Origin: Anaerolineae bacterium
Lineage (GTDB): Bacteria > Chloroflexota > Anaerolineae > Promineifilales > Promineifilaceae
Reading direction: 5' to 3'
DNA length: 64,000 nt
Assembly: GCA_023954475.1 (NCBI GenBank)
Contig: JAMLHW010000011.1
Span: forward strand, 62,001-126,000
A program made the position numbers and the translations under genes. This document shows, one piece after another, positions 1 through 51,575 of the stretch (position 1 is the first letter of the stretch; every line of letters starts with the position of its first letter). Under the pieces are notes generated by a model. The model was not told where the DNA came from. It searched no databases and was given only the letters and a program-made list of their open reading frames with translations.

Positions 1-2035
1 CGCCAATATCAGCTTTCTTCAGGGCGGGGGCATCATTCACTCCATCGCCAGTCATGGCCACGATATTTTGCTTGCGCTGCAGCAAATCCACCAGCCGAAT
101 CTTGTCCTCCGGAGCCACGCGAGCAATCACACCAATGTCGGGTAGATTTTGCAGCAGTTCGTCATCGCTCATGGCGGAAAACTCTGCACCTGTAAGCGCT
201 TTACCTTCAATACCTAATTGATGCCCAATGGCCGCGGCCGTAACCGCATGGTCGCCTGTAATCATCCGCACCTGAATACCGGCGCTGTGGCACTTGGCAA
301 TGGCATCTTTTGCCTCAGAACGCGGCGGATCCACAATACCGACCATCCCCATCAAGGTCAGATCATTGATCTGTTCAATCAGATTGCCCTTGGCATCAAA
401 CGTCTGCGGATCGAAGTCTTTCCGCGCTATCACCATCACGCGCTCACCGCCGGCGGCCATGCGCTCATTTTCCTTGAGCGCCAGATCGCGATTTTCGTCC
501 GTGACGGCTACATCGGCTTCTTCCGGCATCCAGAAGTAGCTACCGCGTGTAATCAACACATCCGGTGCACCCTTGACAAAAGCGCGCACCACCGGCGCTC
601 CTTGCTCATCTTTCATGTTGTGGAAGGTAGCCATAAACTTGTAGTCGGAGTCGAAGGGCACTTCAGCCACACGCGGGTACATTTCACGGGCCGAGTCCAC
701 GTGAATGCCACCCTTTTCGGCCAGCACAATCAAGGCGCCTTCAGTGGGGTCGCCGATGAGCGATTCCCCATCCAAACGGGCATCGGCACAGAGCGCCATA
801 CCCAACATCATCTGTTCTAAATCTATTTTTGTCCCGCCTGCGCTCTTGATCTGCCCTTCGGTACTGTAGGCGGTTGTTCCCTTTTGCCAGGGCTGGCCGG
901 CCGGAACGCCGCGATACAATTGCAGTTCACCTGCTGTGCCGTAGCCTTCACCGGTGACGCTGTAACGGTTCTGTCCTGGGATAGAAAACTCTACGGCCGT
1001 CATTTTGTTCAGCGTCAGTGTACCGGTCTTGTCGGAGCAAATAGCGGAAACGGAACCCAGCGTTTCGACGGATGGCAGTCGTTTGACGATGGCGTTTTGC
1101 TCAGCCAGGATGCGCGTTCCCATCGAGTACATTGTCGTCACTACCGCAGGCATACCGGTGGGAATGGCCGAGATAGCCAGCGCGATTCCCGCCAGGAAAA
1201 TGGCGTCGAATTCCTGTCCCTGAGATAGCCCTAAAATCACCATCAACACGAAGGTGATACCGGCCATACCGGCAATGATCACCACCAGCCGGTCCAGTTG
1301 TTTTTGCAGGGGTGTTTTGTCCGCTTCGGTCTTGTTGAGCAGGTCAGCGATGTGGCCCATCTCCGTGCCCATGCCTGTGGTGGTCACCAGCATTTCGCCA
1401 CGCCCCCGGGTAACGGCCGTGTTCATGTAGGCCATGCAGTGTCGGTCACCCAGCGGCACTTCGTCTTTGGTAATCGCCTCTGTATCTTTGGGTGATGCTA
1501 CACTTTCACCAGTGAGTGCTGCCTCTTCAATTTCCAGCGTGGCGGTGACAAAGAGACGGCCGTCCGCCGGTACGCGATTACCCGCCTCCATCAATACAAT
1601 ATCACCCGGCACCAGTTCTTCGGCGTCGATCTCAATCGCTTGCCCATCGCGGCGCACCCGGGCAATATTTTTCATCATCTTTTCCAGTGCTGCCAGGCTG
1701 GCCTCTGCTTTCGACTCCTGGTTTAAGCCCAGAATGGCATTAAAGACTGTCAAACCAAGCAACACGATGGTTGTGCTCCATTGCCCGGTGAAAATCTGAT
1801 TGACGACAGCCGCACCCAACAACAAGATTTGCATGAAGTCCTGATACTGGCGCAAGAACGCCTGCCAACCCGGCTCTTTAGCCTTTCCCTCCAGTTTGTT
1901 AGGCCCATACTGCTGCAATCGTTGCTGTGCCTCAGCCGCGCTAAGCCCCTTAGCCGGGTCGACCTGAAGTTGCTGTGCGGCTGCTTCGGCCGACAGGCTA
2001 TACCACGTTGTTTGCGTCTCATTTGTTGCTGCCAT
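1..2035 (-). CDS. P-type cation-transporting ATPase, type II-like (C-terminus cut by window edge)
   Basis: ATP-driven cation pump of the inner membrane. Translated from ATG at 2035 (AAGGAA six bases upstream), the 678 visible residues show an N-terminal cation-ATPase domain (LSAAEAQQRLQQYGPN), the first membrane pair, the actuator TGES loop, the phosphorylation motif CSDKTGTLT, and near the edge the hinge TGDGVNDAP. The last transmembrane helices lie outside the window; type II pumps are usually about 900 residues. The M4 ion-binding motif reads PTGMP instead of the PEGLP of SERCA/PMCA calcium pumps, so the glutamate ligand is replaced by threonine and the ion is uncertain (proton, sodium or another cation). 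It is transcribed away from the giant gene and has no visible operon partner. The family call is firm; the substrate is not. Confidence 0.93.
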   Translation of the reverse strand, partial: MAATNETQTTWYSLSAEAAAQQLQVDPAKGLSAAEAQQRLQQYGPNKLEGKAKEPGWQAFLRQYQDFMQILLLGAAVVNQIFTGQWSTTIVLLGLTVFNAILGLNQESKAEASLAALEKMMKNIARVRRDGQAIEIDAEELVPGDIVLMEAGNRVPADGRLFVTATLEIEEAALTGESVASPKDTEAITKDEVPLGDRHCMAYMNTAVTRGRGEMLVTTTGMGTEMGHIADLLNKTEADKTPLQKQLDRLVVIIAGMAGITFVLMVILGLSQGQEFDAIFLAGIALAISAIPTGMPAVVTTMYSMGTRILAEQNAIVKRLPSVETLGSVSAICSDKTGTLTLNKMTAVEFSIPGQNRYSVTGEGYGTAGELQLYRGVPAGQPWQKGTTAYSTEGQIKSAGGTKIDLEQMMLGMALCADARLDGESLIGDPTEGALIVLAEKGGIHVDSAREMYPRVAEVPFDSDYKFMATFHNMKDEQGAPVVRAFVKGAPDVLITRGSYFWMPEEADVAVTDENRDLALKENERMAAGGERVMVIARKDFDPQTFDAKGNLIEQINDLTLMGMVGIVDPPRSEAKDAIAKCHSAGIQVRMITGDHAVTAAAIGHQLGIEGKALTGAEFSAMSDDELLQNLPDIGVIARVAPEDKIRLVDLLQRKQNIVAMTGDGVNDAPALKKADIG

Positions 2036-2636
2036 TGTTTCTTCCTTGTATCGTCAAAACTTATAGGGACACGACCAATCCACACTGTTCAGATGAGTGA
2101 TGCAATTCAGACACGCCCATACCCCGCCGATAATGGCCCATAGGATGATAAACAGAATATTTTTTATTCGTCATGACAACGGTGCCGATTCCATAGTCAA
2201 GCAGACCGAAGACATAGGCGTTTGCCGGCGCCCGACTACACACAGGATGTCATTATAAACTACTTCGGCCGATGTGCTCAACGATTATCCAAATTGAGAT
2301 TGCGAAATACCGTGTTCAGGTGATTGGAGGCGAGAGCCAGAGAAGCTGTTTTCTGCAAGCCCTCACTCTAACCTCAGACCCTCGGTTTCACAATCTTTCA
2401 ACCTTTGGCTGCACGCGATTAGACCAGTAGCAGACTGTTCCACCTTCTCGCCGGTACCATTACCGGTCAAGGTTATCTGCCCAATATCCAGGTATTGTTC
2501 ATATCCCATTTACTGCTAAAATGTACTGATACGACCGCTATTTGATGCGTGCTGCTGATTGTCCTCGATACGCCGTATCAGTGCAGGGTAAAAACGCATC
2601 ATCCCACTTCACGTATAAGTAAGGATAAAACAACCC
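2036..2636. other. Divergent intergenic region, no gene seen
   Basis: About 600 bp separate the leftward ATPase from the rightward giant gene. No open frame here has a convincing ribosome site or recognisable product. It holds one copy of TCGGCCGA at 2265-2272, and presumably the promoters of both flanking genes. The Shine-Dalgarno-like AAGGA of the giant gene is at about 2621-2625. Confidence 0.6.
2495..2522 (+). promoter_or_regulatory. Weak candidate promoter for the giant surface-protein gene
   Basis: TTGTTC at 2495-2500 and TAAAAT at 2517-2522 are separated by 16 bp and lie about 115 bp upstream of the start codon. The match to a housekeeping sigma consensus is moderate and found by eye only, so other starts in this gap are equally possible. 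Confidence 0.25.
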
Positions 2637-5600
2637 ATGCGCACTATTAAACGACTCATAGTTGCCATGCTGGCGTTAGTCGCGCTCGCTGTGCTTGCAT
2701 TTCTGGTTAGCCGTGCCGGTGCCCAGAGTTCAGCATTGGAACAAATCAAAAAAAGTGTCGAGGAGCAGGGGACATATCGCTTCACTGCCGATATTGAACA
2801 GACCTTGATTCCACGTTCTGTGCCGGAAAATATCGGCCGAACCGATGAGCAAATCGATCTGCGGCTGGATGGTCAAGTCAGTATGCCTGATCAGGCTGAA
2901 CTGCAACTGCGCTTCGAAGGCGGTGGACTGAACGACGATCCGCTCAACCTGCGTCAGGACGGTACTACGACTTATCTACTGCAAGAAGACGAGTGGGTTG
3001 CCGTCGAGAACCCCGCCGCACTCGCCGCACCCGGCAACGACTACTTCATCTACCTGTCTGCCGCACACGAGCTGCGCCAGCTCGAAGACAGCTTGAGCGG
3101 CTTTACGCGCTATGCATTTGACATTGACGGGCCGTCGTTAGCAGCGTACATACGCACTCAGGCACAACGCACTCAACCGGCCAATACGACGATTCAGACT
3201 TCGCCACTTGTTGAAAAAATGTCCGGGCACGGTGAGTTGTGGGTCGATGCCGCCGGTTTGCCACGGCGTCAAATTGTCGATCTTGATGTGCCGGAAGCGT
3301 CGGAAGCATACCATTCCCGGATGCACATGGTAATGGACTTCCAGTTTGATGGTGTGGCCATCACTTCGGCCGAACTCTCTTCACAGCTCGCATCTGCTTC
3401 AACTACCACGGCCAATCCGACAACAATACTTCCTGCTAATGGTCAATTAGTAGAGACAGGTATGGATCTATTACTGGTAGCCGGAGTTGCGCTGCTCGTC
3501 TGTGTCCTCATCTTCCGACGACGCACACAGCGCCAGTATAAAGTCATTGCCCTGTCGCTCAGCTTCATATTTCTCGCGTCACCGCTGCTGCAAATTGTGG
3601 GCGCATCAACAACTTTGACCCGCCGTGCCGAAGCGGCCGCTGTGCCGTCGGTTGCGGAAGCGTTGGGCGTTGTGAGTGCAGACTCGGCCGAAAACCAAAC
3701 CCGCTCCGCCCCTACGCCAAATCGTGTCCCTAGCGCCAATCCGACCGCGCAATGCGGCGATGGCACCATCGGCGTCGATAGCGACGGTGACACGATTGAC
3801 GACACCATCGAAAACTGTCTGGGTACAGACGCTTTTTCTGTTGACAGCGACTACGACCTCATTTCTGACACGCTTGAAATCAGCGCAATTTACACCAGCA
3901 CAAGCGGCACCGTTTTTTACGGTGATCCCACACAGGCCGATGCTAACTACGACGGCTTGCACGACCTCGCTGAATGGCCTGTTCCATACGGCTCCGCGCC
4001 GTCGTGGGACCCTGACGGCGACGACATTCCCAACTTATGGGATCGTGATAACGACGGTGACGGCGTCGACGACAAAGATGACCTCTCGCCCTATTCTGTC
4101 TCCTCATTCGCGAGTAACCGCGCATTCACCTTCGAACAAGACGATATCGATCCGTCCACACTCTACATCGATTTCCAGATTCAACCGGCGGACAGCAATC
4201 ACCTGCGCTATTCAGTTTCCTCGCTCGACTGGCCGGAAGACGAAGAAGGTCAGATGCGCGACCTCGACATGTCCGACGAAGATATCAACATGGTTCCGTT
4301 CATCAAAATTGTGACCGACCAAATTCCAAGCGACGAATTTCTGGAATTTTATCAGGTCTCACGCTTCAATCTCGATGGCAAACCGACGTTGTACGTGCCG
4401 GCCTATCCGATTTCGGATGGTGGGCGCATCACCGCATTTCAGGCTAAAGTGGCCTATGAATCCGGCTTTGCGGAGGATATCGACTGGTCTGACATCAGTC
4501 TCGTCTGGGTCGCGTATGCCTATGTCGATACAGATTTGGGCTTCCGCATCGATCGCGAACCGACCAGTGCGGCGCAGTATGCTGAGGATCACCGCTTAAC
4601 CGGCTGGACAGTGACGCGCAGCCGCAATCCCGACTACGTTTTGCTGGGCACGCCAACGACGCCAAACGATGACCGCAATTTGTTCCAGGCGTTGTTTGGC
4701 ATCAGCAAAACATTCCTGCATACCGATTCAGTCGACACCGATGAGATTTTTGCGCGTTTTGACGGCACCAATACGGATCCGATTGAGGTTTGGGGCACGA
4801 ATTCGGCCGATTTTGAAACCTACCGCCCACTCACCACAGAAATCACACACGCCGATGACACCGCACAACATATGGGCGTTCAAATCGCCAACTTCCTCAA
4901 CCAGCACAGCTATCCGACTGACGGCACGATGGCTTCTATCATCATCGCCAACGAAGAAGAAGCCGGGCTGGTCAACATGGATACCATCACCGACACGACA
5001 CAGACGACGACCAGCGTCAATCTGCGCACCATCCCCTTCCAAAAAGTACGCGGTCTAAAACTCGGGACATACAGCTACGTCGACAGCAATTGGAAATCGC
5101 TGGATCTCGATGCCGTACTCGATGAAGTGCTCGACGAACGCTACGATGTGGTCGGCGCACTGAGTGCTGCCCAGGCAACCTATCCCGATTTGACCGAAGT
5201 CAATGTCGCGCAAGGCTTGTCGCTGTTCTATTTGCAGTGGCTCGTCGGGCAAAACATCATCTTCTCTCTCGACGGTGTCGATGTCATCACTGACAGCATT
5301 TCTGACTTTGAAGTTTACGAAGAGATCGACTCGCCGACCGTCGATCTCGCCGTTTATTTGCTCGAAGTTGCCGGATTGGTGCAAGCAGGTGCAGGCATCC
5401 AGATCGACAACACGGCAGGCTTGTACGCATGGAGCCGCAACAGCGACAGCACCTATGTCGGCCAGACCTTCTCGCGTTTCTGGGAACGCATGGAAGCTCT
5501 CTGGGGCACGACTGATCGCACCCAGATTATTTTGTCATGGCTCTGGCTCTCGTACGGCATTATGGGGCTGTTTACAGTCGTCACGACTGTTGTCGCTATC

Positions 5601-8600
5601 TACAATTCGGCCGTTGCGTGGTATCGACTCGGAGCCAGCGTCGGTGCCAGTGTTCTCGGTGGGTTGTCGAGTACGGTGGCGTTTTCCAATGGCTGGGCGC
5701 GTTTGTCAGCGGCAAAAGGCTATATTATTTCGATTGCCCTCTATGTCGTGCTGTTTTTCCTGACAACCGATTTCTCCGATCCGCGCAGTGTCGGCAACAA
5801 AGTTGCTTATTACACAGTCGCCATTGTCTTTATGCTCGTCTTGCTGGCGTTGACATTGCTCGTACCGGGCGCAGGTCTGGTAATCGGTCTATTCTACTTG
5901 ATCGACATGATTCTTTTCTTTGCGACAGACGGCGAGTTTACGCTGTGGGATTTCTTTGTTGAAGGCGTCGCAGGACTGTTTTTCTTCGAGCAGACTTTGA
6001 CCCAACTGGAAGGTATGAATTTCAGAGGGATGCGATCGACAGTGAGTGATACGAGCAACGGGTTGCTGGAAGGTGCGCGATTTGAATTTTCGGATCAGTT
6101 TACAGGGAAGGTCAGCAAGGCGGATGACGATGCCAGCAACTCGGATCTGTGGAACAGCTATATTTATGGCTATTGGGAAGTCACGTCATCCGATACGGTG
6201 ACGATGACCGTTGACAACGAAATCACATCAGCCACTGCGACCAATACCGACGATTATTGCGAGATCGTCGATGAGATTCTGGTTTGCCGCAATGATGTAG
6301 CGGCTTCGGCCGAATTGGATGCAGGCATCAACCAGTTCATGAACTTGATGTTCCGCGTCAACGCCCGCTTCCGCGATGAAGCGTGCGGCCTCTTTTCTTC
6401 CGCCAAATCGCTCAGTTGCAAATACGAAAATGTCAATAAAACGTATCCGGACGATCTTGATGAAGACAATCAATGGGGACCGGTCAATATTTTTGTCGAT
6501 GTGTTTCCCGATTCGCTCGATGCATTCTGGGCGTGGAACGAGATCGAAAATCTGGACTATGACGGCGATGGTCTGACTGCCAGCGAAGAAACTGAAATCG
6601 GCACATCGGCTACTGATTGGGATAGCGACGATGACGGCTTGAGCGACGGCTACGAATTTGACAACCGCGATGCCCTGGGCACCGACCCGCTCGATGCAGA
6701 CAGCGATGATGACGGTTTGTCCGATGGATTTGAACAACAGCATTTGACGTCCATTGGTTCGGCCGATACTGACAATGACGGCATCCTCGACAGTGAAGAG
6801 ATTTTCCATCAGGATACGCTCGACTTCGACAACGACAATGATACCGACGAATGGATCGGTGGCTGGTCTATTGTCGTACCCGGTACGGCGGAGACGTTTG
6901 TCGTCTACAGCTCAGGCGTCGATGCCGATGCCGACCTGGACGGCCTCAACGATGCCAGCGAACGCCTCAATCAGACCAGTCCACACGCGTTTAACCCTGC
7001 GCCGACGTTGACACTGGCATACGCACCGCAGCAAACCAGTCCGTCCGGCAATACGGCCAGCTATGTCCAGCCCGGCGACACCGTCACCATTGATCTGGCT
7101 CTGTTCAACAGCAGTCCCCAGAGCATTACGGAAACGCTGTCTCTCTGCTTGCCTGACGTGCTGACCTACGCCACGGGCGGCAACTTGAGCGGAGCAGTTT
7201 CAATAGTACCTGTGCCGAACGGCAATTGCTTCGAATATGATTTCTCCGGCGGCAGCACTTTGCACCTGTTTGAAACGGTGACGACGACGTTGACGGCAAC
7301 CGCCAGTGCAAGTGCGATTACCGGCACAGTTTCCGCAGCGTTGCCGTATTCCCTGCTTGATCCGGCAGGTTCCGTGGTCGATGCGTTCACCGTCTGGGTT
7401 GACGATGACAATCCACAATTGACGATTACATCGCCTGCGCCAAACGAATTGATCGGCGGTGGCGTCTCTCAGTATGTCTTTGGTGGCGCATCGGCCGATG
7501 CCACATCATGGATTGAGACGGTTGAAGCGTTGGACGGCGACCTGAGTAGCTCCGAAACGACCAGCCCGTGGGCCATTTCCATGCCGCTGCCGGGTGACGG
7601 AACCCACACATGGAGTTTCCGTGCCACCGATGTCGTCGGTCACACCGCGACCGATTCTGTCACGTTCACCGTAGACAATACGCCACCGACCAATTCGATC
7701 AATCTGAGCGAAGGCCAGGTGATCAGCGTCACCGCCAAAGCACGGGTCAACATTCCACTCAACGGCACCGCTTCCGACAATCTCTCCGGTCTGACACGCA
7801 TCCAGGTCAGCCTCGACGACAGCGCGTGGTCAACCATCTGGAATGATCCGGGTTATCCCTTGTCGGCCAACTGGTCCGATCAATGGCAGTTAACCGGCGG
7901 CGAATCGATTCAGGGCGAACATGTCGTCCGCATCCGTTCTTATGACCGCGCGGGCAACATCAGCACAGAATTGGAACGCAACTTTGTCATTGACGTCCTG
8001 TCGCCGACCGACGAGTTGACCAACCGCACCTTCCTCAACGATCCGCCGCACTTCAATTCGGCCGATACGATCACACTCAACGGCGTCGCCAATGATGCCG
8101 GAAATTTGCCGCAAGCGCCCAATCCCGTCGATCTCAACGGCACACTGCACGCAATCAGCGACGCGACCATCTGGCTGCAACCACACGATATTTACGAAAA
8201 CGACCTCGGCGTCAATGCGACCTGGATCGGTGACTTCAACGGCGACCGGTTGGCCGATCTCGCTGTTGGCTTGCCGTCGGCCGAAAACGGCAACGGCAAA
8301 GTCGCCATTCAATACGGTCGCGCGGGCGATTGGCCGGTTCCTGATTCGGCCGAAGCGCTCAGCGACAGCCAGTCAAGCGTCATCGGTGAGTCGAATACAT
8401 CCTATCTCGGAGCGGTACTGGCTCCCGCCGGCGACTTTAACGGTGACAATCTCGACGATTTCCTCGTCGGTGATCCTGACAACGGTCGCGCCTTTCTCGT
8501 CTACGGCAGCAATACAAATCTGGGCACCGATCGGCCGATGGACGGGCCGCGCAACAACAGGTGGAGCAAAATCACGGCTCCCGACGACATCGGCACAAAT

Positions 8601-11600
8601 ATCTGGGCTGCCGGAGATGTCAACGATGACGGTCTCGACGATTTGCTGATCAGCATGACAGGCGTGACAACCGGAACCGTCTACCTGCTGCTCGGCGACG
8701 TCAGTCCGTATTTGCCCGAACTCAGGCTCGATGTACTGGCAGCCGCCACCATCGCAACCCCTGCGTCCGGCGCATCTGTCGCCGGCGTTGGCAACCTCAA
8801 CGGCGACTTCTACGACGACTTTGCCATCGCATTCGACAATACCGTCTACATCTACTATGGCAACTCAGGCTTTGGTCAAAGTGATCTGCGTTCTCTCACA
8901 GCGGGTGATGCGGACGCCACGTTTGCCGGCAGCGACGCTGCACCGCAAATTCTCGGCCTGGGCGATGTCAATGGAGACATATTTGACGATTTCGTATTTG
9001 CTAATGGTACAGCACCAACCCTCGTCTACGGCAATGGCCTGACGACGCAAGCATTGAGTTTCGTGCCCGTGGCTGACGGCTTTTTGGCTGCGCCGGGTGA
9101 TGTCGACGACGATGGGCGCAATGACATCGTTGTCGGTAATGCCGATGGCAACGCCTATTTGCTGCTCGGCTCGGATGTCACGGTTGCAGCCGCGACGCTT
9201 ACCGGTGTCGATGGCGCGGCTTCGACCTTGATTGCTTCCGGAGCAGACATTAACAGTGACGGCTCGTCGGACCTCGCCCTGATTCCATCTCCTTCTGCGG
9301 CATCCAGTGTCGGCATGAACGGTGGCGTGACAGCGAATTTGCCCTCGCAAAGCGCACTGCCACATGCGGGACATTCGGCCGAATCCACACCGATCAACCG
9401 CACACTCCTCAACCCGTTGGCAACGACGCTTTTTGTCGACGATGACGGCACATGCGGCGGTCAGTCACCGTGCTATGTGACCCTGCAAGGCGCGGTCGAC
9501 ATGGCTGCGGCAGGTGACACGATCAGCGTCCTGCCCGGCAATTACACCACAGTTACGATCACGACCGATGATCTGACCCTTGCTGCAACGACGATTGCTG
9601 ACGCGACGGTGATCGACGCAGCCGGCGGCACGTTTGCGGTCAAAATCAGCAATGCAAAAGGCGTCACACTACAAGATTTTACCATTCAAGATGCCAATTA
9701 TGGTGTGTGGTTGGAAACGGCGGGACAAAACGGCTACGAAACACCTGCCGAGAAGATCACGCTCGACGGTCTGCTGATTCACGATTTCACCACGCACGGT
9801 GTCTACTTGAATCGCACGAGTTCGGCCGATATTACACAATCAACCATCGTCGGCAGCGCCGATCACATCGGTGTGTACGGCAGCCCGGATTCCAGCGCAA
9901 CCGGCGCATGGGACACCGGTCAAAGCGACAGTCGTTTTGCCGTCGATACCGGCGGCGGCATGTTCCTCAGCGGCAACGAACTGCACTTTATCCACGGCGA
10001 CACATCGGCCGATAGCGACAAACTCAATCTGGATACCGATGCCTGGACTGATCTGGCTGATGCGCCGTTCGGCATCTACGACGAGGAAGCGACCGCCGTC
10101 GACGACAATGGCAACGCCTATCTCATGCATACGAGTGATGCGTTCAGCCGCCTCAACGGCGAAGTGCTGGCTATTGAGTTTGTCAACAGCAGCAAAATCT
10201 ACGTCGGCGGCAATTTCACTTCGGCCGATGGTGTATCCGTCAATTACGTCGCCAAATGGAACGGCACGAGTTGGTCAGCACTCAATTACAACGCATCCAA
10301 TGTACCCAATGACACCGTCTACGATCTGGACTTCAACAGCGGCAAATTGTACGTCGCCGGAGAATTTGGACTCAAACGCTACACCGAAAGCAGCAATAGT
10401 TGGGAACATATCGCCACCCCTGACGTAACCAATTCCTCATTGGCTGGGTGTAACGACCCTGCCATTCACGCAGTCGAAGTCGACACATTTGATGGCGGTG
10501 TCTACTTCGGCGGTTGTTTCGACAAAATCAACCAGGCACCACTGAACAAACGCAACAAGACAGCTAATGTAGCGCATTGGGATGAAGGCACATGGAGCCT
10601 TCTCGATCAATACAACAGTTGTGAAGCAGGTATGGACGGGCCAGTTTATGCCATTGCTCTCGATGGCGACAATGTCTACCTGGGTGGCCGGTTCAGTGGT
10701 TCATGGGAATACAATTCAGCGTTTAGTTTCTGCTGGAGCGAGCGACCAACGGGTTACAACATCACACGCTACGACAAGGCTGGTGACAATTTCCACCCGA
10801 TGAACTTCTCCAGTACCGATATTGGCTGCATTACCAATTTCGGCACGGGTTTGCAGGGCGACGGTGATACTGTTAAAACACTCGCACTCAACAGTGGACG
10901 GTTAATTGCCGGTGGCGATTTCAGCACAGTGTTCTCTAACGGTAATTGCGCCGGCGTTTCCGACTACAGCGAGACGACAAACAATCTTTACATGTACAAT
11001 GTCTCTGGTGTCACCGGCAACGACACAGTCAACGAACGCTCGCGCTGGGACATCAACAACGTCGTCGATTCGGTCTTTATTAATTCCAGCAATCAGGTTT
11101 ATATCGGCGGCAGCTTCACACAGGGCAAGAAGTGGGGTGGTACGACTGTCAACGCCAGCCGCGTTGCCACGATCAACTCCAGCGATGTATTCAGTGCCCT
11201 TGGCGACGGCATCAGCACAGCGATTACCGCCATCGCTGAGAATGGCAGCACAGTCTACGCCGGTGGCAACACCGCGACGCTTGGCGGCGTTTCCAGTGCC
11301 GCGTTTGCTCGTTGGAACGGCACTTCCTGGGCCGGGCAGACCTACTTCTTCAAGCGCAATGGTGCGACCTGGTCGAGTCAGGCCAACGTCAACGCGCAAT
11401 TGTTTACTGATCCGGTTGTGCTATCGTTCGATGGCGGAGGCTCAATCTACATGATGCGGCGCGGCGGCACAACCGACTTCTATCGCTATACGATCAGCAG
11501 CAACTCGTGGACAAGCCGGGCCAACCTGCCATCTGCACCGGGCAACGGCGCAGCGATGACGCCTGGCATTGGCGGAATGTACGCCTTGCGTGGTGGGGGA

Positions 11601-14600
11601 TCGGCGTTTTGTTTCTATAACGTTACTGCAAATAGCTGGAACTGTGGTCTAGCTGCCTTACCTGCAAATGCCGGTACCGGTGCATCATTGGCATGGGACG
11701 GCAACGACATCATCTATGCCACAGCAGGGGGTAACGGCAAGCAATTCTTTGCCTACAGTATCGCCGGCAATAGCTGGACCATCCTTGGCGACGGCAGTTC
11801 TGCGACGCCGAACGATGCCGATTTGCCCAACGGTGCCAACGACGGCAGCGGTATTGCTGTCTACAACAACGCCCTCTACTACTCGCCGGGTAACAGCGTC
11901 GGCACCTTGTACACATTTGGCCCGTTAACTGTTTATCAACCGCGACTCAATGTCAACAATTCGGTCGTGGTCGTACCCGAGGCCACGGCCAACGCGACGT
12001 GGATCAACGGCACATTGTCCGACGCCTTCGCGCTGACCGGAGCAGGCAGCGACTTCGTCGGCGGTGGCGGCACAGTCTGGTCTCCTGCCATTGCTACGCA
12101 GGGCACAGCACGCACGTATGCTGAGGCCGCTTTCCTCGACGCTGACAACGATGTCTATCGCCTGACGGCCGGTTCGGTGATCACGACCGGTTATCACACC
12201 TACCGCAGCGATGCCTATGTCAGCACAAGCGGTGAAGAATTTAACGCGATTCAAGACGCAATCTACAGCGGAGCCAATCGCGTTCTCGTGCGCAGTGGCA
12301 TTTACGAAGGTGCCATCGACCTGATCAACGGCGTGTCACTCTACGGGGCAGGGGCAGCGCGTACGGTGCTGGAGCCAACCACGAGTGTTACAGACACATT
12401 GGTCAGTGCCGTCAATGTCAACGGCGCAAGTTTGACCGGTTTTACATTGGCCGGCAATGGCGTAGTCAATGGCTTGCTCGTCGACGGCGGATCAAACAAC
12501 GTCACATTCAAGCGCAATATCGTGCGCGATACGGCAACGGGCGTAGTTGTCAACGGCAGCGGCAACGATCTGGAAGCGAGCAACAACACGATTGTCGGTA
12601 ACGGAACCGGCATGGATTTTGCCGGTTGTGCCGATGTCGATGTGCGCAACACGATCTTCGCCTTCAACTCGGCAACCGGACTCGATTTCGACGGTTGCGC
12701 TGCGACGAAAGTTCACACCTACAATAACTATTGGGCCAACGGAGTCGATATGGCTCCGCTCGAACCAAATGGGAGTGAGCAATTCCTCGATCCGTTATTC
12801 GCAGACCTTGCCAGCCAGACATATGAGACGCTGGACTTCTCGCCGATCATCGATGCGGGTGATCCGGCCGATCCCTCGCCACCGGGCGGCGGCGGTCGTG
12901 CCGACATCGGCTACCTGGAGCAGACTGGTTCCAGCTTCTACGCAGATGACGATTATTGTGAGACGTGCGAAAACGATGGCCTGACGTGGCAAATCGACGC
13001 GTTTGACACCATTTCAGATGCGCTGCATGCAGCCGAAACAGAAATCGCGCTGCTGGAAACCAGTGATGTACTTTACACGGTTGGTGTTGGCATCGGCTCG
13101 TATGCCGAGAATGTTTTCATTCCGAGTTATGTGTATTTGACGGCATCCGACCTGTTTGAAGTTGAATTGACACCTGCGTCCGGTACGGCAGCCGTGACGT
13201 TTGACAGCGTGACTAATGCGGGTATCAGCGGCTTCCACATCAACGGCAGCGGCGCGACCGGCATCGAAATCATGGGCGCATCGAACAATGTTGCCGTCTA
13301 TCGCAATCTGTTTACCAATCTGGATGATGGCATTGTGTTGAGCGGGAAGGCCACTGCTGTTGTTGAATTCAATACCTTCGATGGTATGAGTGTGGCGGGT
13401 GTTTCGGCCGAATCCTCCGGCACATGGGCACGTGTGCGCAACAACATCATCCAAAACGCGGCGACAGCCCTGTCCGTCAGCAACAGCAGCCAACTGCGCA
13501 GCAACTACAACCTCTTCTACAATAACAGCGCCGACTTCGCCGGTGTCACAGCGGGAGACAACGACATCATCGGTCAAGACCCGTTGCTCAACACGACAGG
13601 CTACGTGCTGAACCAGAATTCGCCGGCCATTGACATGGCTCATCCGCTCGTCGTGCCGCCATCGGGCGGTGGCGACCGCGCCGATATGGGGTGGCGCGAA
13701 GCGCGTGTCGCGCCGGTCGCGTTGTTTCTCGGCAAGCTGAATGAATCGACAGCAACAGCTTATTCAGGTGTTGCTGCTGCTCAAATCGGTGTAGTCCCCG
13801 TTGCCGATGCGTCGCTGCCGATCACGGCGACGACACCTGCCTCGTGGTCGCCGCTGACCCTGACTACGCCGGGCGCAGCGCGTTCATATTGGTCACATGT
13901 TGTGACAACGGACGGTGAAGGACTGTATCGCGTTTATACCCGGGCAGCTGATGCGGTCAATAACCGCGAGACAGAAGCTGATGATTGGTACGCCGGTGCG
14001 TTCTTCGTCGATGACACCGCGCCGGTCGTCACGTGGCTTGCGCCAACTGACGGCGGTACACCGGCTACGCCACTGGAATTGCGTGCGCAGGTTTCCGACT
14101 TCATCAATGGCGCGTTTAGCGTCGAGTCGATTCAGTTTGTGATCAACGGCACAGTGGTTTCGGCCGAATGGGCGGCCGAGCCGTGGAGCGACGACGGCAG
14201 CACGCCACGCATTTTCCGCGCATGGGTCGATGTCACCCCCGGCGCACACACCATAATCGCCTCCGCCGCAGACAAAGCGGGTAACATCGGCAGCAGCACC
14301 ATCAACATCACCGCAACATCCAGTGCGACGAGCGACATAACCGGGCCGGTATTGACTGTCACAGAACCGGCAATTGACGGCTATGTGACACAGGAAGCGA
14401 CCTTCGCCGGCACCGTTACAGACGGCGAAAGCGGTGTCGCTTCAGTCGAAGTCAGCATTGACGGCGGTGTCGTCTGGACGCCGACCGCTGTGAGTGGCTC
14501 AAACTGGACACTCCTGCTGCCGATGCCGAGTGATTCCGAGTTCGTCAGCTACCCGGGTGTGGTGCGTGCCAAAGACAAGGCAGGCAACGAAACGCTCGTC

Positions 14601-17600
14601 AATCGGGTTGTCACTGTCGACAATTTGCCGCCGACCGGCTTGCAGCCCGTGACATTCAGTCATCCGGAAGGGTCTCACTTCGACAGTGCGCCGACGCTCG
14701 ATATCGCCTGGGCGACGCCGATCGATAACAGCGGCATTGTCACGATTACGCTGGACGTGAATAACACGCCGGTCATGACGCCGACAACGACCGCAGTGGG
14801 CAATGCGACCTCTGTCGTGCTCGAACAAGATCAGACATGGTATGTTCACATTGCTGCCGCAGATTTGGCAGGCAATATCACGACATATAATTACGGACCG
14901 TGGTATGTCGGTTCGGCCGATGATGCGGGAACGCCCCTGGCCGACCGCACGCAGACAATCATTGTGGATGGGTCGATGGACTTTGATCTCGATGAATGGC
15001 TCGCCAGCGAAAAGGCGAGCGATGATGAACGGGGCCTCGATGCGCAAACAGCCAAAACACAGGATTTATACGTCACGTGGTCAGGCGATGCGATCTATCT
15101 CGGCTGGGATGGCGCAGCGTGGGAACTCGACGGCACGTTGTGGGCCTATCTGGGCACAGGTGGCGGAGGTTCGACGACAGCGGTAGACGGGACTGTGTTG
15201 CCGTTTTCGGCCGATTTAGCTGTTCAAATCGACGCGGCGGACAACGGATTGCTGTGGAGCTACGGCGGTAGCTGGAGTTCGGGGACACTGGAATTTGCTC
15301 AGGGCGATCACCTGCAAACTGAAATACGCATTCCATTTGCTGTTGACACAATCGCAACGTTGCGCGTCCTCACCTACGCAACCGATGACGACAGTGCAGT
15401 TTGGGCAGCGCTGCCGACGACCAATGATCTCGATTCCGCGTGGCCGGACAACTTTGAATGGTCAGACCTCGCCAACGTCACCTCATCCAGCGACGGCCAA
15501 CCCGAAAAACTGTCCGTCGTCACCGATCTGAATCACGAACCGGATACATTTGTTTCTTCTTCCGAAGACGGCACGGGATCGTTTGACTGGCAGATCGAAA
15601 ATCTCGAAGTTGATGCAATTGCAGCGCTTGACATGGTGTTTGAGAGTGACGGCAACTGGACGATTGACGGTGTCATAACCGGCAACTGCGTTGCCAATTG
15701 CGCTGATCCGCACACGCGCACGTTCCGCGAAGCGGCTCCGGCACTAGGCACAACCGCTGTGACCGATCTGTTCGGCCACTTTGCCGGCGATTTGAGTGGC
15801 ATCAATTCGGTCGTGGTGTCGTTGACGGTGATCGCCGACACGCAGGTTCTCGACACGATTGTCACTGAGTTTGTAGTCGATGTCGATGCGCCTACCGTAG
15901 CAATAGATACGGCAGCCGATGTGGTGATCGGTGCCGGCTCACAAGAAATTGTCGGTTCGGCCGATGATGGTGGTGGCGGCGGCGTCGCCACCGTTGAGTT
16001 CCGCGAAAACGGTGGCGCATGGCAACTGGCCAATGGTACGGAAGCCTGGTCGGCCGATGTCACTGTGCCGGGAGCCGGCAGCACGTACCAATTTGAAGTG
16101 CGTGCGACCGACGTTCACGGGCAGGTGAGTGCCATTGTCGATGAAACATTCACCGTTGATTCGACACCGCCGACAGCTACCGTTACGCTGCCGCCACTTG
16201 TCAACGGCAACTTTACGGTGCTGCGCGGTTCGGCCGAAGACCCCGCGCCCGCAGGCGGCTCGGTCAGCACATTGGCGCTTCAGTTCGACAACGCGGCCAA
16301 CCCATTCCATTTTGCCAACGTGCAGGGCAAAAAACCGGATGGCACTCAGGATTGGAACTATACATGGAACTTGCCTGCAGAAGATGGTGTTTCACATTCA
16401 CTGCGCCTTTCTGTCACTGACCGGGTTGGCAACAACGCCATCACTGGCTGGGAAACGGTCATCGTCGATACCGTCGCGCCTGTCCTGACGGTGTCAACCA
16501 TTGCCTATCACGTGGAACTGAATCAGGTGTCGACATTGCTCGCCGGACTGGTCAGCGACGGGCACAGCGTCGCTCAAGTCAATGTGCGCATCAACGCACC
16601 GAATGGGACGACGACAGTCAATCCGGCCACAGTTAATGCCGGATCATGGTCATACGATGCCAGTATTGCCACCAATGGTATCTACCGCCTGTTTGTCGAA
16701 GCGTTTGACGAAGTCGGCAATGTCAAGGTGAAAGGCCCGTTCGTATTACAGGCTGGTTCGCCGTACACGGCCAACAAACAGGTCTCGGTCGACGGTGGGG
16801 CGACATGGTTCAATGCGGACACACCCACCGGGCCGACCTTGCTTATCGGCAATGATCCGCAGTACCGGGTCATTGCCAGCCACGTCGGCAATGTCGCCAT
16901 CACACTCGATGTTACTGATCCAACCGTACCGGCACTCGATGTTTCGGGTGTTACGCTGCCGGTCGGCACAATCGATATGGTCGTCGCCGGGCCCGTTTCC
17001 GGCTCGTGGGGATCAGGCCAGATTACGAATACGGCTAGCATCGAAGGCGTCTATACTGACTTCGGCGGCACGGTTTGGAACGACAACAAGACAGACGACG
17101 CCTATTACTATGGCATCGATCCGACGCATACAATTCAAAAGCAGGTGTCAGTCGACGGCGGTGCGACGTGGCATGATGCCGATGCACCAACCGGTCCAAC
17201 GTTGCTGACCGGCTACGATCCGCAGTTCCGCGTTATCGCCAGCCATACCGGTAATGTCGATATTCTCCTCGATGTGACCGACCCGACATTGCCGACGCTC
17301 AATGTGACGGATGTCGACCTGGCTCCAGGCGATACAGACAAGGTGATTGCCGGGCCGATCACGGCGTCGTGGGCAGAAGGGCAGCAGACCAACACCGTTA
17401 CTGTTGATGCGCGTTACGCGCCGAGCGGATCGGTGCTGTGGAGTGACAGTCAAACGGATGTTGCCAGTTATTACGGTGCAAATCCTTCGTATTCGGCCGA
17501 AAAGCAAGTCTCTATCGATGATGGCGCTACCTGGCACGACGCCGACACCGTAACCGGGCCGGAATTGCTCATCGGCAACGATCCACAATATCGCGTGATC

Positions 17601-20048
17601 GCCACGCATACGGGCAATATCGACATCACACTCGATGTGACCGACCCGACATTGCCGGCGCTTGACGTGACCGATGTGCCGTTGAGTGTAGGTGATACAG
17701 ATGTCGTCATCGCCGGGCCGGTCAATGTGGCGTGGGGTGCGGGACAACAAACCAATTCGGCCGAAATAGACGGCGCTTTCACCGATGACGGCAATCACGA
17801 ATGGCTCGACAACCAGCCCGATGACGCCAATTATTACGGTGCAGACCCATCAATAGCCATCGTCAAGACGTTTGCAACCGACTCGATTGTGGCGGGTGGT
17901 GACAGCAGCGAATTCACGCTGGAGATCACCAACGACGGCAACGTACCGCTCGACAACGTCATCGTGACCGACACGGTTGACAGTCGCCTTCAGGTGCTGG
18001 GTGTTGTCAGCACAGTGGGTACAGATAACGACAGCGACGGCGATGCACAGACGATCGAATGGTTGATCGCCAGCCTCGATGTGAGCCAGACGGCAACCAT
18101 GACGGCGACTTACGCCGTTTCATCAACCGTTGAAATCGCCATTGTGGACAATACGGCCGATGTGTCGGGTGATTACCAGGACGATGTCGGCAACGACGAC
18201 ACCGTAACCAGTACGAGCACAGACAGCATCGAAATTCGCACTAAAGCCGATCTGAACATCAGCAAAGATGACGGCGAAACGCAAGTGACGGCGGGCGACG
18301 GCATCGTCCACACGTATGTCATTACGGTTGTCAACAACGGCCCGTCGATTGCCGACAATGTCACTGTAACCGAAGACAGTTTCCCGGTCGGCTTTGCCAT
18401 GGGGACCGTTTCATCGACGCAAGGCGGCTGCACTGGATTCCCGTGCAATCTCGGTGGTCTCGATCCGAGTGGTTTGGCGACGATTGCAGTTGAGTATACG
18501 GTTCCGGCCGACACGCAAGCCGGGTTTGAGACGAACACGGTTTCGGTCAGTAGCGATGTGCCCGATCCGGAATTAAGCGACAATAGTGCTGCTGATACGA
18601 ATGAGGTGTTGACTTCGGCCGATTTGAGCATCAGCAAAGATGACGGCGTCGATCAAATATGGGCCGGCGACGGCGTGATCTACGAATACACCATCACGGT
18701 CAACAACGACGGCCCATCGATTGCCGACAATGTCACCGTAACCGAAGACAGTTTCCCGGCCGGTTTTGTCATGGGAACTGTTTCGTCGTCACAAGGTGGC
18801 TGCACAACCTTCCCGTGCAATCTCGGCACAATTGCCGTCGGCGGTTCAGCAACCGTTTCCGTTCAGTACACAGTGCCGTCCGACACACCGGCCGGCTTTG
18901 AGACGAATACAGTGTCAGTGACGAGTGACGAACCAGATCCGGATACGGAAAACAACAGTGCCGACGACACAACTGAAGTATTGACCGATATAGAATTGTC
19001 GGTCGTCAAGATATTCTCACCTGATTCAGTTCCACAGGGAACACGGCAAAGCTTCACCATCGAAGTGAGCAATGCCGGGCCGTCCGATGCAGTCGATGTA
19101 GCCGTGACAGACTCTGTGAATTCGTCAATCGCAGTTGATGCCGTCAGTGTAACGTCAGGCAGTGGCGATTGTTCTGCGAGTATTGATCAGATGGTCGATT
19201 GTACGGTTCAGATTCCGGCAGGAACGTCTGTTACTGTGACAATCGACTATATAACGGCCCCATTCCTCGAAGGCGATTCGCCACAGGGCACTGCAAACGG
19301 AGCCGACTTCCGCTTTGTGTTTGTCAATGGCGGCATTCTCGAAGGTAGTTCAAGGGGCGTTGTAACGTTCATATCGGCCGATGGCACTGTCATGACCTAT
19401 ACCAGCAATAGCAAAAACAACATTGTTTTCGATCCGCCGGGTCCTGACCAAGCGTTCAGGCTTGACGTGTCATGCTCCGATCATTATGAAGGAGGCTGGG
19501 GTGAAAAGGAAGGCCCGGATGATGAGGACAATCCAAATTGGCAAGTAGCATTCTATTCAATCGCCAGATACAAGAACAACGGAAGTTTCCAAAAGAATTG
19601 TGGCAATGTTGTCAGCGATTACAGTGTATTGAATCGCGCGGAAGCAAATGGATATGATTCATCCGGAATCGAGTCGGCGTATGATGAAGATTTGTTGATC
19701 ATCGAACCCGGTATTACGATTGTGAATATCAAGACGAGCGGCAAACGCGTCACAATCAATATCGAAAACAATACTGGAGACGATAAGGAAATCAGTTCCA
19801 TCTTCATTCTGTGGCCGGAAAACAACGGGACGCTGAAAAGCATCAGAGTTGATGCTGACACAATCTGGTATGGCAGTATGCTGCCTACCTATGCCCTGCT
19901 CGATTCCTCAGTACTGGGTTGGGATGGTGGCGAACTGGCGAACGATGCCAGGAGAATCCGCATTGACTTTGCTCTTCATGTTGAAAACACTGGCTATGAG
20001 ATTCGGCTGACCTTCACTGACGGCACTTTTCTGGACATCGACAGATAG
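2637..20048 (+). CDS. Giant multidomain surface protein (TSP3, FG-GAP, beta-helix, Ig-like, DUF11 repeats)
   Basis: Protein of 5,803 residues with ATG at 2637 and AAGGA upstream. In order: N-terminal signal/anchor (1-30); a lipoprotein-like domain (about 35-250); hydrophobic helices near 272-322; thrombospondin type-3 aspartate-rich calcium loops (about 375-480); a hydrophobic multi-helix block (about 960-1120); more TSP3 loops (about 1305-1452); Ig-like modules; FG-GAP beta-propeller repeats with DFNGD and DVNDDG loops (about 1859-2218); a right-handed beta-helix (about 2262-2408); propeller and Kelch-like repeats (about 2450-3098); further beta-helix segments (about 3190-3690); Ig-like repeats; three 121-residue repeats; DUF11 repeats; and a unique tail (about 5540-5803). 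There is no LPXTG or other recognised sorting signal, so the internal helices probably anchor a very long external C-terminal part. Role inferred: adhesion or cell-surface structure, calcium stabilised. It has no operon partner. Confidence 0.9.
16776..17864 (+). repeat. Three tandem 363-bp (121-residue) repeats inside the giant gene
   Basis: Units begin at 16776, 17139 and 17502 with exact 363-bp spacing. Each opens with K-Q-V-S-(V/I)-D-(G/D)-G-A-T-W, continues through P-Q-(Y/F)-R-V-I-A and L-D-V-T-D-P-T, and ends with Y-Y-G. The match is clear at both protein and DNA level, so the units probably arose by in-frame duplication. They look like beta-sandwich modules next to the DUF11 repeats. 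Confidence 0.9.
18246..18989 (+). repeat. Two tandem 372-bp DUF11 repeats inside the giant gene
   Basis: Units start at 18246 and 18618 (124 residues each). Both begin A-D-L-(N/S)-I-S-K-D-D-G and share [18 protein letters not shown]-like cores, near identical in DNA. This is the DUF11 / conserved-repeat type found in bacterial surface proteins; more diverged copies lie on both sides (about 17865-18240 and 19000-19250). High nucleotide identity implies recent duplication or gene conversion. Confidence 0.88.
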
Positions 20049-49513: not shown

Positions 49514-51562
49514 CTAATTCAATAAGAACAGATCATTATCCCCTGTCTGAGCCGGACTCTGCAGTGCGTCAGGAACAATTGTCAGCCCATCGATGTCGGC
49601 GCTCAGCCCAAACGCCTCACCTTGCCAGAAAAGGCCGGATGTAGCAGCATTACATTGCTGAGAACCACCACCAGTCAACCGACACCTGTAGATGTCAGCC
49701 GGAGTCAGCGATTGACCGTTGAGGTCATAAGGGCCGGCGGTGGTGAAGTAGAGGGCATTTATCGGCCGATCATGCCACACACCGACCAGATCACCATTGT
49801 CATCATTGCCCAATCCGCTGCTCGAGCCGTCAAAATAGTGTAACCATGTGCCACTCGTATTGCTGCCTAGTGATGCATTGGTCAACACGATGAGATCTTC
49901 ATCGTCTCCGGAAAGGCCGGAAACCGCGAACGGCCCGCTCGTACTGACCGCGAGACGCCCGTTGATAATCGTTACGGCGTCGATATTCTCATCGGCCGAT
50001 GTCAGGTCAACGTCGGAGCCGTCCAGAATTAATCTGAAGCGCTGTTGCTGTGGTCTGTACAAAACGAGGTCGCTGGGTTCGACGACCCCTGCACCGGGCA
50101 GTGACACGGTTGTGTCAAAACTCATGATCAATTTGTTGTTGAAAATCAGGAATGCATCGACATTGCTCCCGTCAATAGGGGCAGTTGCGCTGTCGAAGTA
50201 GCTGAACCAACTGTTTGTGCCGGTATAGAAACCGAGAATGTCACCGGCTTCGGCCGAAACACCGCCAACCACATCATTGTCCGCCAAACTCACATAAATC
50301 AAATCGCCCGGCGGCACAATCGACGCGACAGCCGCGCCGACATCGGTCAGGCCGGCACCCAGCAAGCCCGCATAGCCCGGATTTTGTGCATCAATCGAAA
50401 TCGCCGTATTCTCGATCACAGTGCGTACCTGAGCCGGTGTCAACCCCGGATTAGTCGCCCGCAAAACAGCGGCTTCACCGGCAACAAACGGCGTCGCCAT
50501 CGATGTGCCGCTCCACCAGGCATACCCACCGGGGAAACTGCTAAAGATACCCACACCTGGCGCTGCCATGTCTACCCACGTGCCGTAATTGGCAAACGGC
50601 GCACGCACCAGATTTTCGTCGACAGCAGTCACAGCGATAGCATCAGTGTAGCCTGCAGGATATTGCAAAACATTCGTATCGAGATTGCCGGCAGCCGCCA
50701 CGACAACGACATCATTAACTACCGCCTGCTGCGCCAGATCGAGCAACATTTCCGAATCGTAATCTGTTCCCAGGCTGAAATTGGCCACATCCGCGCCATT
50801 GTCGATGGCGAAAAATAGCGCCTCGCCGATCAACCACAAATTGCTGCGTCCGTCAGTGTCAACAGCGCGAATCGGCATGATCCGGGCCAGCGGCGCAACT
50901 TGATGGACGATACCGGCAACGTGCGTGCCGTGTCCAAACGCTTCATCAATTTGTCCGTCGCCATCGTCGTCTAACCCGTTCATCTCATCGGTCGGATCGC
51001 CGTCGTCGTCAAAAAAGTCGTACCGTTCCAGCGTCCAGACATCGACGAGAAATGGATGGTCGAGTTCAAAACCAGTGTCGACGACGGCTACCGTCACGCC
51101 GTAGCCTTGCTGGCCTAAATTGTGCGCATCCCAGAGATTGATCAACTGTGGTGCGTACTGCGTGCCGGTCGGTGATGGATCTGTACCACCCCATGCCCAA
51201 TCTGCTTGTGGGTTGGCTTCCGGCAAATCGCTCAAATAGTTGGCTTCGGCGTATTCGATGCGCGGATCACCGCCACTGCCGCTGGGATCCATCATTTCGG
51301 CGACGATGACGGCGTCATCGCCCGGAGCGACTTCGAGTAGATAGATGTCTGCCTGCGCGGGAATGGTAGCGAGTGTCGTCGTGCCGTAATCGGCGTTGAC
51401 GTCGTCAATTGTTTGCGTGGTGTCGTTTTCAAGCCGCACAATAAGTTGGGTTTCGACATAGTCGCCGCCATCATCGGCCGATACTGTGCCAGGTAGCAGC
51501 CCGACAGCAAGAACCAGCAGCAGAACAAAGGACAAAACGCGCGAAAGCGGTCGTATGGTCAT
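49514..51562 (-). CDS. Secreted subtilisin-like (S8) serine protease with orphan C-terminal domain
   Basis: 682 residues from ATG at 51562 with an excellent AGGAGGT. Signal peptide 1-29 ends near TVSA-DD. An I9-like propeptide (about 36-110) precedes the S8 catalytic domain with Asp162 (VVDTG), His211 (HGTHVAG), oxyanion Asn293 (AAAGN) and Ser354 (GTSMATP), a complete triad. A calcium-loop-like insert (DDDGDPTDEMNG, DDDGDGQIDE) sits just before the histidine. Residues 430-682 form an unassigned beta-rich region with repeats like DLVLYRP and DIYRCRLTG. It is 13 bp downstream of the CHAT gene, so it is likely an exported effector of that cassette. Confidence 0.92.
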   Translation of the reverse strand: MTIRPLSRVLSFVLLLVLAVGLLPGTVSADDGGDYVETQLIVRLENDTTQTIDDVNADYGTTTLATIPAQADIYLLEVAPGDDAVIVAEMMDPSGSGGDPRIEYAEANYLSDLPEANPQADWAWGGTDPSPTGTQYAPQLINLWDAHNLGQQGYGVTVAVVDTGFELDHPFLVDVWTLERYDFFDDDGDPTDEMNGLDDDGDGQIDEAFGHGTHVAGIVHQVAPLARIMPIRAVDTDGRSNLWLIGEALFFAIDNGADVANFSLGTDYDSEMLLDLAQQAVVNDVVVVAAAGNLDTNVLQYPAGYTDAIAVTAVDENLVRAPFANYGTWVDMAAPGVGIFSSFPGGYAWWSGTSMATPFVAGEAAVLRATNPGLTPAQVRTVIENTAISIDAQNPGYAGLLGAGLTDVGAAVASIVPPGDLIYVSLADNDVVGGVSAEAGDILGFYTGTNSWFSYFDSATAPIDGSNVDAFLIFNNKLIMSFDTTVSLPGAGVVEPSDLVLYRPQQQRFRLILDGSDVDLTSADENIDAVTIINGRLAVSTSGPFAVSGLSGDDEDLIVLTNASLGSNTSGTWLHYFDGSSSGLGNDDNGDLVGVWHDRPINALYFTTAGPYDLNGQSLTPADIYRCRLTGGGSQQCNAATSGLFWQGEAFGLSADIDGLTIVPDALQSPAQTGDNDLFLLN

Positions 51563-51575
51563 CGGTGACCTCCTG

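Follow-up and report, generated by a model that had tools for sequence, protein, structure and literature searches.

Proteins of more than 5,000 amino acids (aa) have been catalogued by the ten thousand over all life (PMC11573180), and giant genes occur at raised frequency in Anaerolineae and Chloroflexia (PMC10608941). Among the closest described systems are GhlA of Litorilinea aerophila and GhpA of Aureispira (PMC13319060), surface giants of about 6,000 residues that are likewise encoded by a single gene. Apilactobacillus kunkeei also has giant extracellular proteins (PMC12863079); these and further huge surface proteins of bacteria (PMC11573180) share with the protein described here its size class, a modular extracellular build and several copies per genome. 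The subject here is a gene of 5,803 codons in a stretch of 64,000 nucleotides (the window) from an Anaerolineae bacterium (GenBank assembly GCA_023954475.1, contig JAMLHW010000011.1, positions 62,001 to 126,000). Giant modular surface proteins are in themselves known. What is new in this variant is its first part of some 1,450 residues, called the head below, an unnamed membrane head that recurs phylum-wide.

By sequence comparison, this one conserved head is the mark of an unnamed family of giant proteins in Chloroflexota, defined in this analysis. The survey of giant genes gave no feature common to them (PMC10608941); the head marks many. It allows the giants to be located and counted throughout the phylum and compared with one another. 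No named family with such a head was found in the literature searched.

The gene starts with ATG at 2637, its stop ends at 20048, and direct translation gives 5,803 aa without an internal stop. The five remaining frames of this stretch hold 85-294 stops each. In 200 trials with base-shuffled sequence the longest open frame had a mean of 177 codons and a maximum of 303. The GC content at third codon positions (GC3) is 0.58-0.68, falling to 0.52 over the last ~300 residues, and a scan of the gene for tandem DNA repeats found none. The source contig measures 182 kb, in a genome of 5.1 Mb that is 97.9% complete in 26 contigs, and it carries two further family members, here called paralogues A and B. 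The gene and its head comprise:

2637-20048, + strand: whole gene, 5,803 codons and stop (open reading frame, shuffle test)
2621-2625, + strand: AAGGA, a ribosome-binding-like site 11 nucleotides before the ATG (read directly)
2637-2726, + strand: signal peptide or N-terminal anchor, residues 1-30 (hydropathy peak 3.0, sequence)
2727-3356, + strand: LppX/LprG/LolA-fold domain, residues 31-240 (AlphaFold2, Foldseek, VIA)
3459-3599, + strand: transmembrane hairpin with basic loop RRRTQRQYK, residues 275-321 (hydropathy)
3756-4082, + strand: first TSP3-type array, residues 374-482, DxDxD at 381, 403, 435 and 471
4083-5426, + strand: family-specific ectodomain, residues 483-930, motif HLRY..LDWP.D..G
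5520-6002, + strand: polytopic membrane block, residues ~962-1122, about 5-6 helices (hydropathy, AlphaFold2)
6537-6986, + strand: second TSP3 array, residues 1301-1450, motifs at 1329, 1355 and 1377

Signal peptide, LppX/LprG/LolA-like fold, transmembrane hairpin, TSP3, ectodomain, membrane block and second TSP3 make up the head in this order. The whole-head AlphaFold2 model is usable for residues 31-240 only, where its confidence is moderate (predicted local distance difference test, pLDDT, ~75). Foldseek matches this part to LppX (2byo, E 1.7e-5). The VIA Z scores are 11.5 for LprG, 10.9 for LprF, 10.5 for LppX and LolA-LolB, and 10.3 for LolB; the best match has a root-mean-square deviation of 4.2 over 166 residues. 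The fold is therefore that of LppX, LprG and LprF, which are mycobacterial lipid-binding lipoproteins, and of LolA and LolB. Its identity to these proteins is ~10%, and it differs from them in having no lipobox cysteine and in being fused to a giant membrane-anchored chain.

A first-pass annotation of the window had called the N-terminal part lipoprotein-like. As to fold, this was correct. Hydropathy shows a signal-type segment at residues 1-34, and residues 1-35 were checked for cysteine without finding any, hence there is no lipobox. Because of this the domain, although LppX-like in fold, is probably not a lipoprotein. The same annotation had put a membrane block at around residue 1,000, with TSP3 loops before it and propeller, beta-helix and Ig modules after it. 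This order holds, but a hairpin ahead of the block had been missed: hydropathy gives a pair of segments at 269-298 and 300-328. Nearly all of the relatives scanned have this hairpin, mostly with a basic loop, and nearly all have a membrane block as well. A match of this region to the NCBIfam model EF0750_LPXTG stays below cut-off (19.7 against 47 bits).

For the block itself, hydropathy alone indicates residues ~963-1103, and AlphaFold2 places low-confidence helices at ~962-989, 994-1014, 1022-1043, 1049-1075, 1079-1096 and 1103-1122. A polytopic block inside a giant secreted chain, and not at its end, is unusual as far as we know. Conservation in the head peaks at the first TSP3 array (34-48% identity), and the second matches Pfam TSP3_bac at 28.3 bits against a cut-off of 25. 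Pfam matched nothing in residues 1-1188 of the 5,803-residue protein, and nothing apart from TSP3 in residues 483-930 of 18 family members. The head sequence had no match in the PDB.

How widespread is this head? Residues 1-1454 were compared with 59 related genomes, and most of this query was matched in giants of genomes G005 (twice), G015, G028, G031 and G045. Their open frames run from 4,037 to 7,875 codons, that of G045 being cut by the contig end. Overall a collinear head was counted in giants of at least six other genomes from the family or class. Giants from other genera, and from another class, show the same succession over the first ~1,450 residues, and the 5,803-residue protein has all of the family's features in order (signal, LppX-like, hairpin, TSP3, LDWP ectodomain, membrane block, TSP3). 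In a phylum sample, 19 of 301 genomes carry the head at 1e-20 or better (18 of the 300 others). These assemblies include single-contig chromosomes of 5,258,541 and 4,684,931 bp and a contig of 6,346,587 bp; these lengths fit Chloroflexus aurantiacus J-10-fl, C. aggregans and Herpetosiphon aurantiacus. Among the matches listed, the named records with a full head are Anaerolineae or Chloroflexi metagenome-assembled genomes (MAGs).

The longest relatives measure 7,791 and 7,875 aa, so the idea that the 5,803-residue protein belongs in the size class of the largest bacterial proteins did not hold.

No relative was found on plasmids, or on viral contigs in a pattern-limited scan, and PADLOC had no match to the first 1,188 or the last 1,015 residues. 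With these searches empty, a phage, plasmid or defence origin was rejected.

The likeness to relatives extends far beyond the head. At ~30-42% identity, at least 11 giants of other genomes align with residues 1 to ~4,705 in largely the same order; a windowed map likewise shows a core to ~4,700 common to 11 proteins. For example, the G028 giant aligns to 1441-4704 in two stretches at 35-38%, G005_54 to 2749-4702 at 36% and G031_94 to 2644-4696 at 31%. This bears on the explanation that the frame is a fusion of two or more genes made in assembly or binning, which the first-pass annotation had itself named as what might undo its single-gene reading. The last ~1,100 residues are indeed absent from close relatives and lower in GC3, and this genome is not free of frame errors or decay, given that paralogue A is spread over three frames. 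Against this, the order of ~4,705 residues recurs independently in several genera and contigs, the head-to-body order is found in many genomes including single-contig chromosomes, and the extension stays in frame with module types of the family. For residues 1-4,705 the collinear relatives reject assembly fusion, and for the frame as a whole it is extremely improbable. As an unnamed family of giants recurs in distantly related Chloroflexota, the 5,803-codon gene is real and not an accident of assembly. The observation itself is confirmed. The earlier interpretation is partly supported: right in outline, corrected in parts.

Behind the head, the following modules make up the chain:

7434-8006, + strand: Ig-like Big_13/Big_7 modules, residues ~1600-1790 (Pfam)
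8169-9281, + strand: FG-GAP propeller repeats, residues ~1845-2215, DxNxD at 1866, 1933 and 1994 (Pfam)
9384-9956, + strand: first right-handed beta-helix region, weak, residues ~2250-2440 (Beta_helix 18.9 bits, below cut-off)
10074-11666, + strand: probable propeller, residues ~2480-3010 (Rax2/DUF5122/Kelch-like, all below cut-off)
12174-13616, + strand: right-handed beta-helix region, residues ~3180-3660 (Beta_helix 55.5 and NosD 51.9 bits, above cut-off)
13944-14816, + strand: Ig-like modules, residues ~3770-4060 (Big_13 29.7 bits, Big_7 26.1 bits)
14949-15461, + strand: body module common to Chloroflexus-type giants, residues ~4105-4275 (conserved across two classes)
15894-16751, + strand: last Ig-like modules of the conserved core, residues ~4420-4705 (Big_13, Big_3_3; Pfam)
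16752-20045, + strand: extension without counterpart in close relatives, residues ~4706-5803

Pfam matches above cut-off over the protein are TSP3_bac, Big_13/Big_7, FG-GAP, Beta_helix/NosD, Big_3_3 and DUF11; Rax2, DUF5122 and Kelch appear below cut-off only. Bacterial proteins with TSP3, FG-GAP, Big_13 and Beta_helix modules (PF18884, PF01839, PF19077, PF13229) are known, and the modules here match these models above cut-off. The family differs from such proteins in being defined by its unnamed head, and not by its modules.

The best explanation overall, which we consider fairly probable, is a giant surface protein anchored by its head, with the chain outside and an adhesive role. That it is a membrane-anchored extracellular giant is highly likely from the sequence; that adhesion is its role is roughly an even call. 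The proposed topology goes by hydropathy, loop charge and the extracellular type of the modules. The signal segment would start export via the general secretory route. The LppX-like domain would then lie outside, with the hairpin at 275-321 crossing the membrane and its basic loop inside, which fits the positive-inside rule. The TSP3 and ectodomain part would again be outside, and the block of 5-6 helices would form the second anchor of the chain. The ~4,700 residues after it would extend from the cell as a long chain of TSP3, Ig, propeller and beta-helix modules; every module of the body is of an extracellular type, which would put the body outside. Calcium, if bound, may stiffen the TSP3 modules. 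The chain may contact cells, surfaces or polysaccharide, and because of the module content adhesion or cell-cell contact seems the most likely role. Surface exposure and the shape of a fibre are likewise predicted. Chloroflexota are believed to have no outer membrane. With the shared head in hand, cultured Chloroflexus or Herpetosiphon would allow a study of how giant surface chains are anchored in an envelope of this kind.

Two points weigh against this topology. The number of helices that hydropathy assigns to the block shifts with the threshold and ranges from 3 to 7 among members (mostly 4-6), which makes an even helix count and a C-terminus outside the cell tentative. In addition, AlphaFold2 confidence is low over residues 440-1200.

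Anchoring at several points, as first proposed, is supported in the head only. At the other end the 5,803-residue protein has no membrane helix or sorting-like tail by hydropathy and sequence, though many relatives have one, and the LPXTG sortase-type C-terminus (LPXTG, helix, basic tail) was sought there and is absent. The C-terminus of this copy would thus be free. In contrast, paralogue B (G000_B) and several G031 giants, among them G031_50 and G031_19, have a C-terminal membrane helix and a basic end, and giants of the Chloroflexus and Herpetosiphon types carry a short YLP-type motif at their end. Such hydrophobic tails occur in several genera, for example VYLPLVLRP and IYLPIAMR (loci L076, L077, L078, L079, L082, L083, L084, L045, L053 and L054); the motif is possibly a surface-sorting signal of Chloroflexota. 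Across the family the front anchor seems to be constant and the rear end variable.

In a tree built from 25 heads, two clades with good support appear, each with several copies per genome. The 5,803-residue protein clusters with G015, G031_50, G028 and the G005 pair. Since its own paralogues A and B fall in the other clade, the two kinds of head appear to have diverged long ago and to coexist in one genome. Heads are common to relatives while bodies differ between the clades. It is at least conceivable from this that the chain is cleaved after export, where the head stays behind as a membrane device and the body is released or becomes an envelope scaffold or S-layer-like component. The head is separable in evolution, and bodies end variously in a membrane helix, a YLP-type tail or neither. 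Within clade I, however, head and body are conserved together, and we hold cleavage to be unlikely.

Neighbouring genes were compared at 19 giant loci. A regulator of the type BTAD-(NB-ARC/AAA)-TPR lies divergently upstream of six and codirectionally at one; two more divergent pairs were found by coordinates (G015:C44, G025:C421). The total is at least 8 divergent BTAD pairs among ~30 family heads in seven genomes, where chance would give ~0.13 pairs within 2 kb (from 188 BTAD matches in 43.2 Mb). The corresponding probability of 2e-12 treats related loci as independent and is too optimistic; the excess is still large. Divergent BTAD genes stand at L037:1542-4700, L055:16051-18000, L056:2-1495, L105:473-3901, L052:17188-18999 and L102:706-4035. 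Two-component genes precede paralogue B.

These regulators, together with a fold otherwise seen in carriers of lipids or lipoproteins (LprG, LppX, LolA/LolB), could suggest that the LppX-like domain and the block form a device for handling or sensing lipid or glycolipid, with the long tail as its probe. Likeness of fold shows no function, though, the chain has no cytoplasmic signalling domain, and regulators adjoin some members only and not the 5,803-codon gene. This makes such a device very unlikely. A broader proposal is that the head is a Chloroflexota-only platform, in which a lipid-binding LppX-type domain and the polytopic block anchor, and perhaps assemble or sense tension in, giant fibres, with paired BTAD regulators controlling many members. 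It is quite unlikely in this full form.

The extension after the conserved core holds three repeats of ~120 residues (marked at 4717, 4838 and 4959), four DUF11 stretches and an end of ~240 residues. The DUF11 stretches all fall within the last ~700 residues. This matters for the possibility of a grappling-hook protein like GhlA, which shares the phylum, the approximate length, a reported N-terminal membrane segment and DUF11 modules (PMC13319060). GhlA consists of 49 consecutive DUF11 domains; here the head is polytopic, and other modules fill the chain outside the extension. Dozens of DUF11 (or equivalent Ig-like) domains in a row, which make up the filament in GhlA/GhpA, were not found by Pfam, which gave the four stretches. 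A grappling hook is accordingly highly improbable.

For the final ~240 residues (19317-20045), one related genome (G019:C131) gives a 49% match located at the edge of a contig, and another gives a weak match. Given this one match and the lower GC3, these residues are perhaps an acquired end piece.

The module at ~4105-4275 had no match in Pfam or the PDB by sequence profile. By eye only it recalls a DOMON/CBM9 sandwich; sequence searches gave no support, and neither did an AlphaFold2 model of 4064-4290 from two sequences (pLDDT 32).

Paralogue A (G000:C3:8070-21059; L037, L092) consists of three successive overlapping frames of 2,095, 986 and 1,421 codons. It is either a decayed or frameshifted giant, or the result of assembly errors. 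Paralogues A and B have 89% identity over their C-terminal ~347 residues and ~30% over the remainder (L037/L092, C3:20-21 kb; L038/L039), which points to a recent exchange of the part that bears the membrane helix.

A MAG labelled Halieaceae (G353:C538, L096) contains a tandem array of three giants spanning ~46 kb, and further ones. As the head was found in none of the 248 other genomes from this phylum, these giants are probably mis-binned Chloroflexota DNA.

The neighbours of the 5,803-codon gene were checked, and no BTAD regulator and no conserved partner was found among them. It adjoins a P-type ATPase gene and sugar-metabolism genes. The former, for a P-type cation ATPase, lies at 2-2035 on the - strand, divergent from the giant gene, and leaves the window at its left end. 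Further on, at 49514-54401 (- strand), a subtilase with a fervidolysin-type prodomain stands beside a CHAT-TPR protein, making two adjoining protease-family genes.

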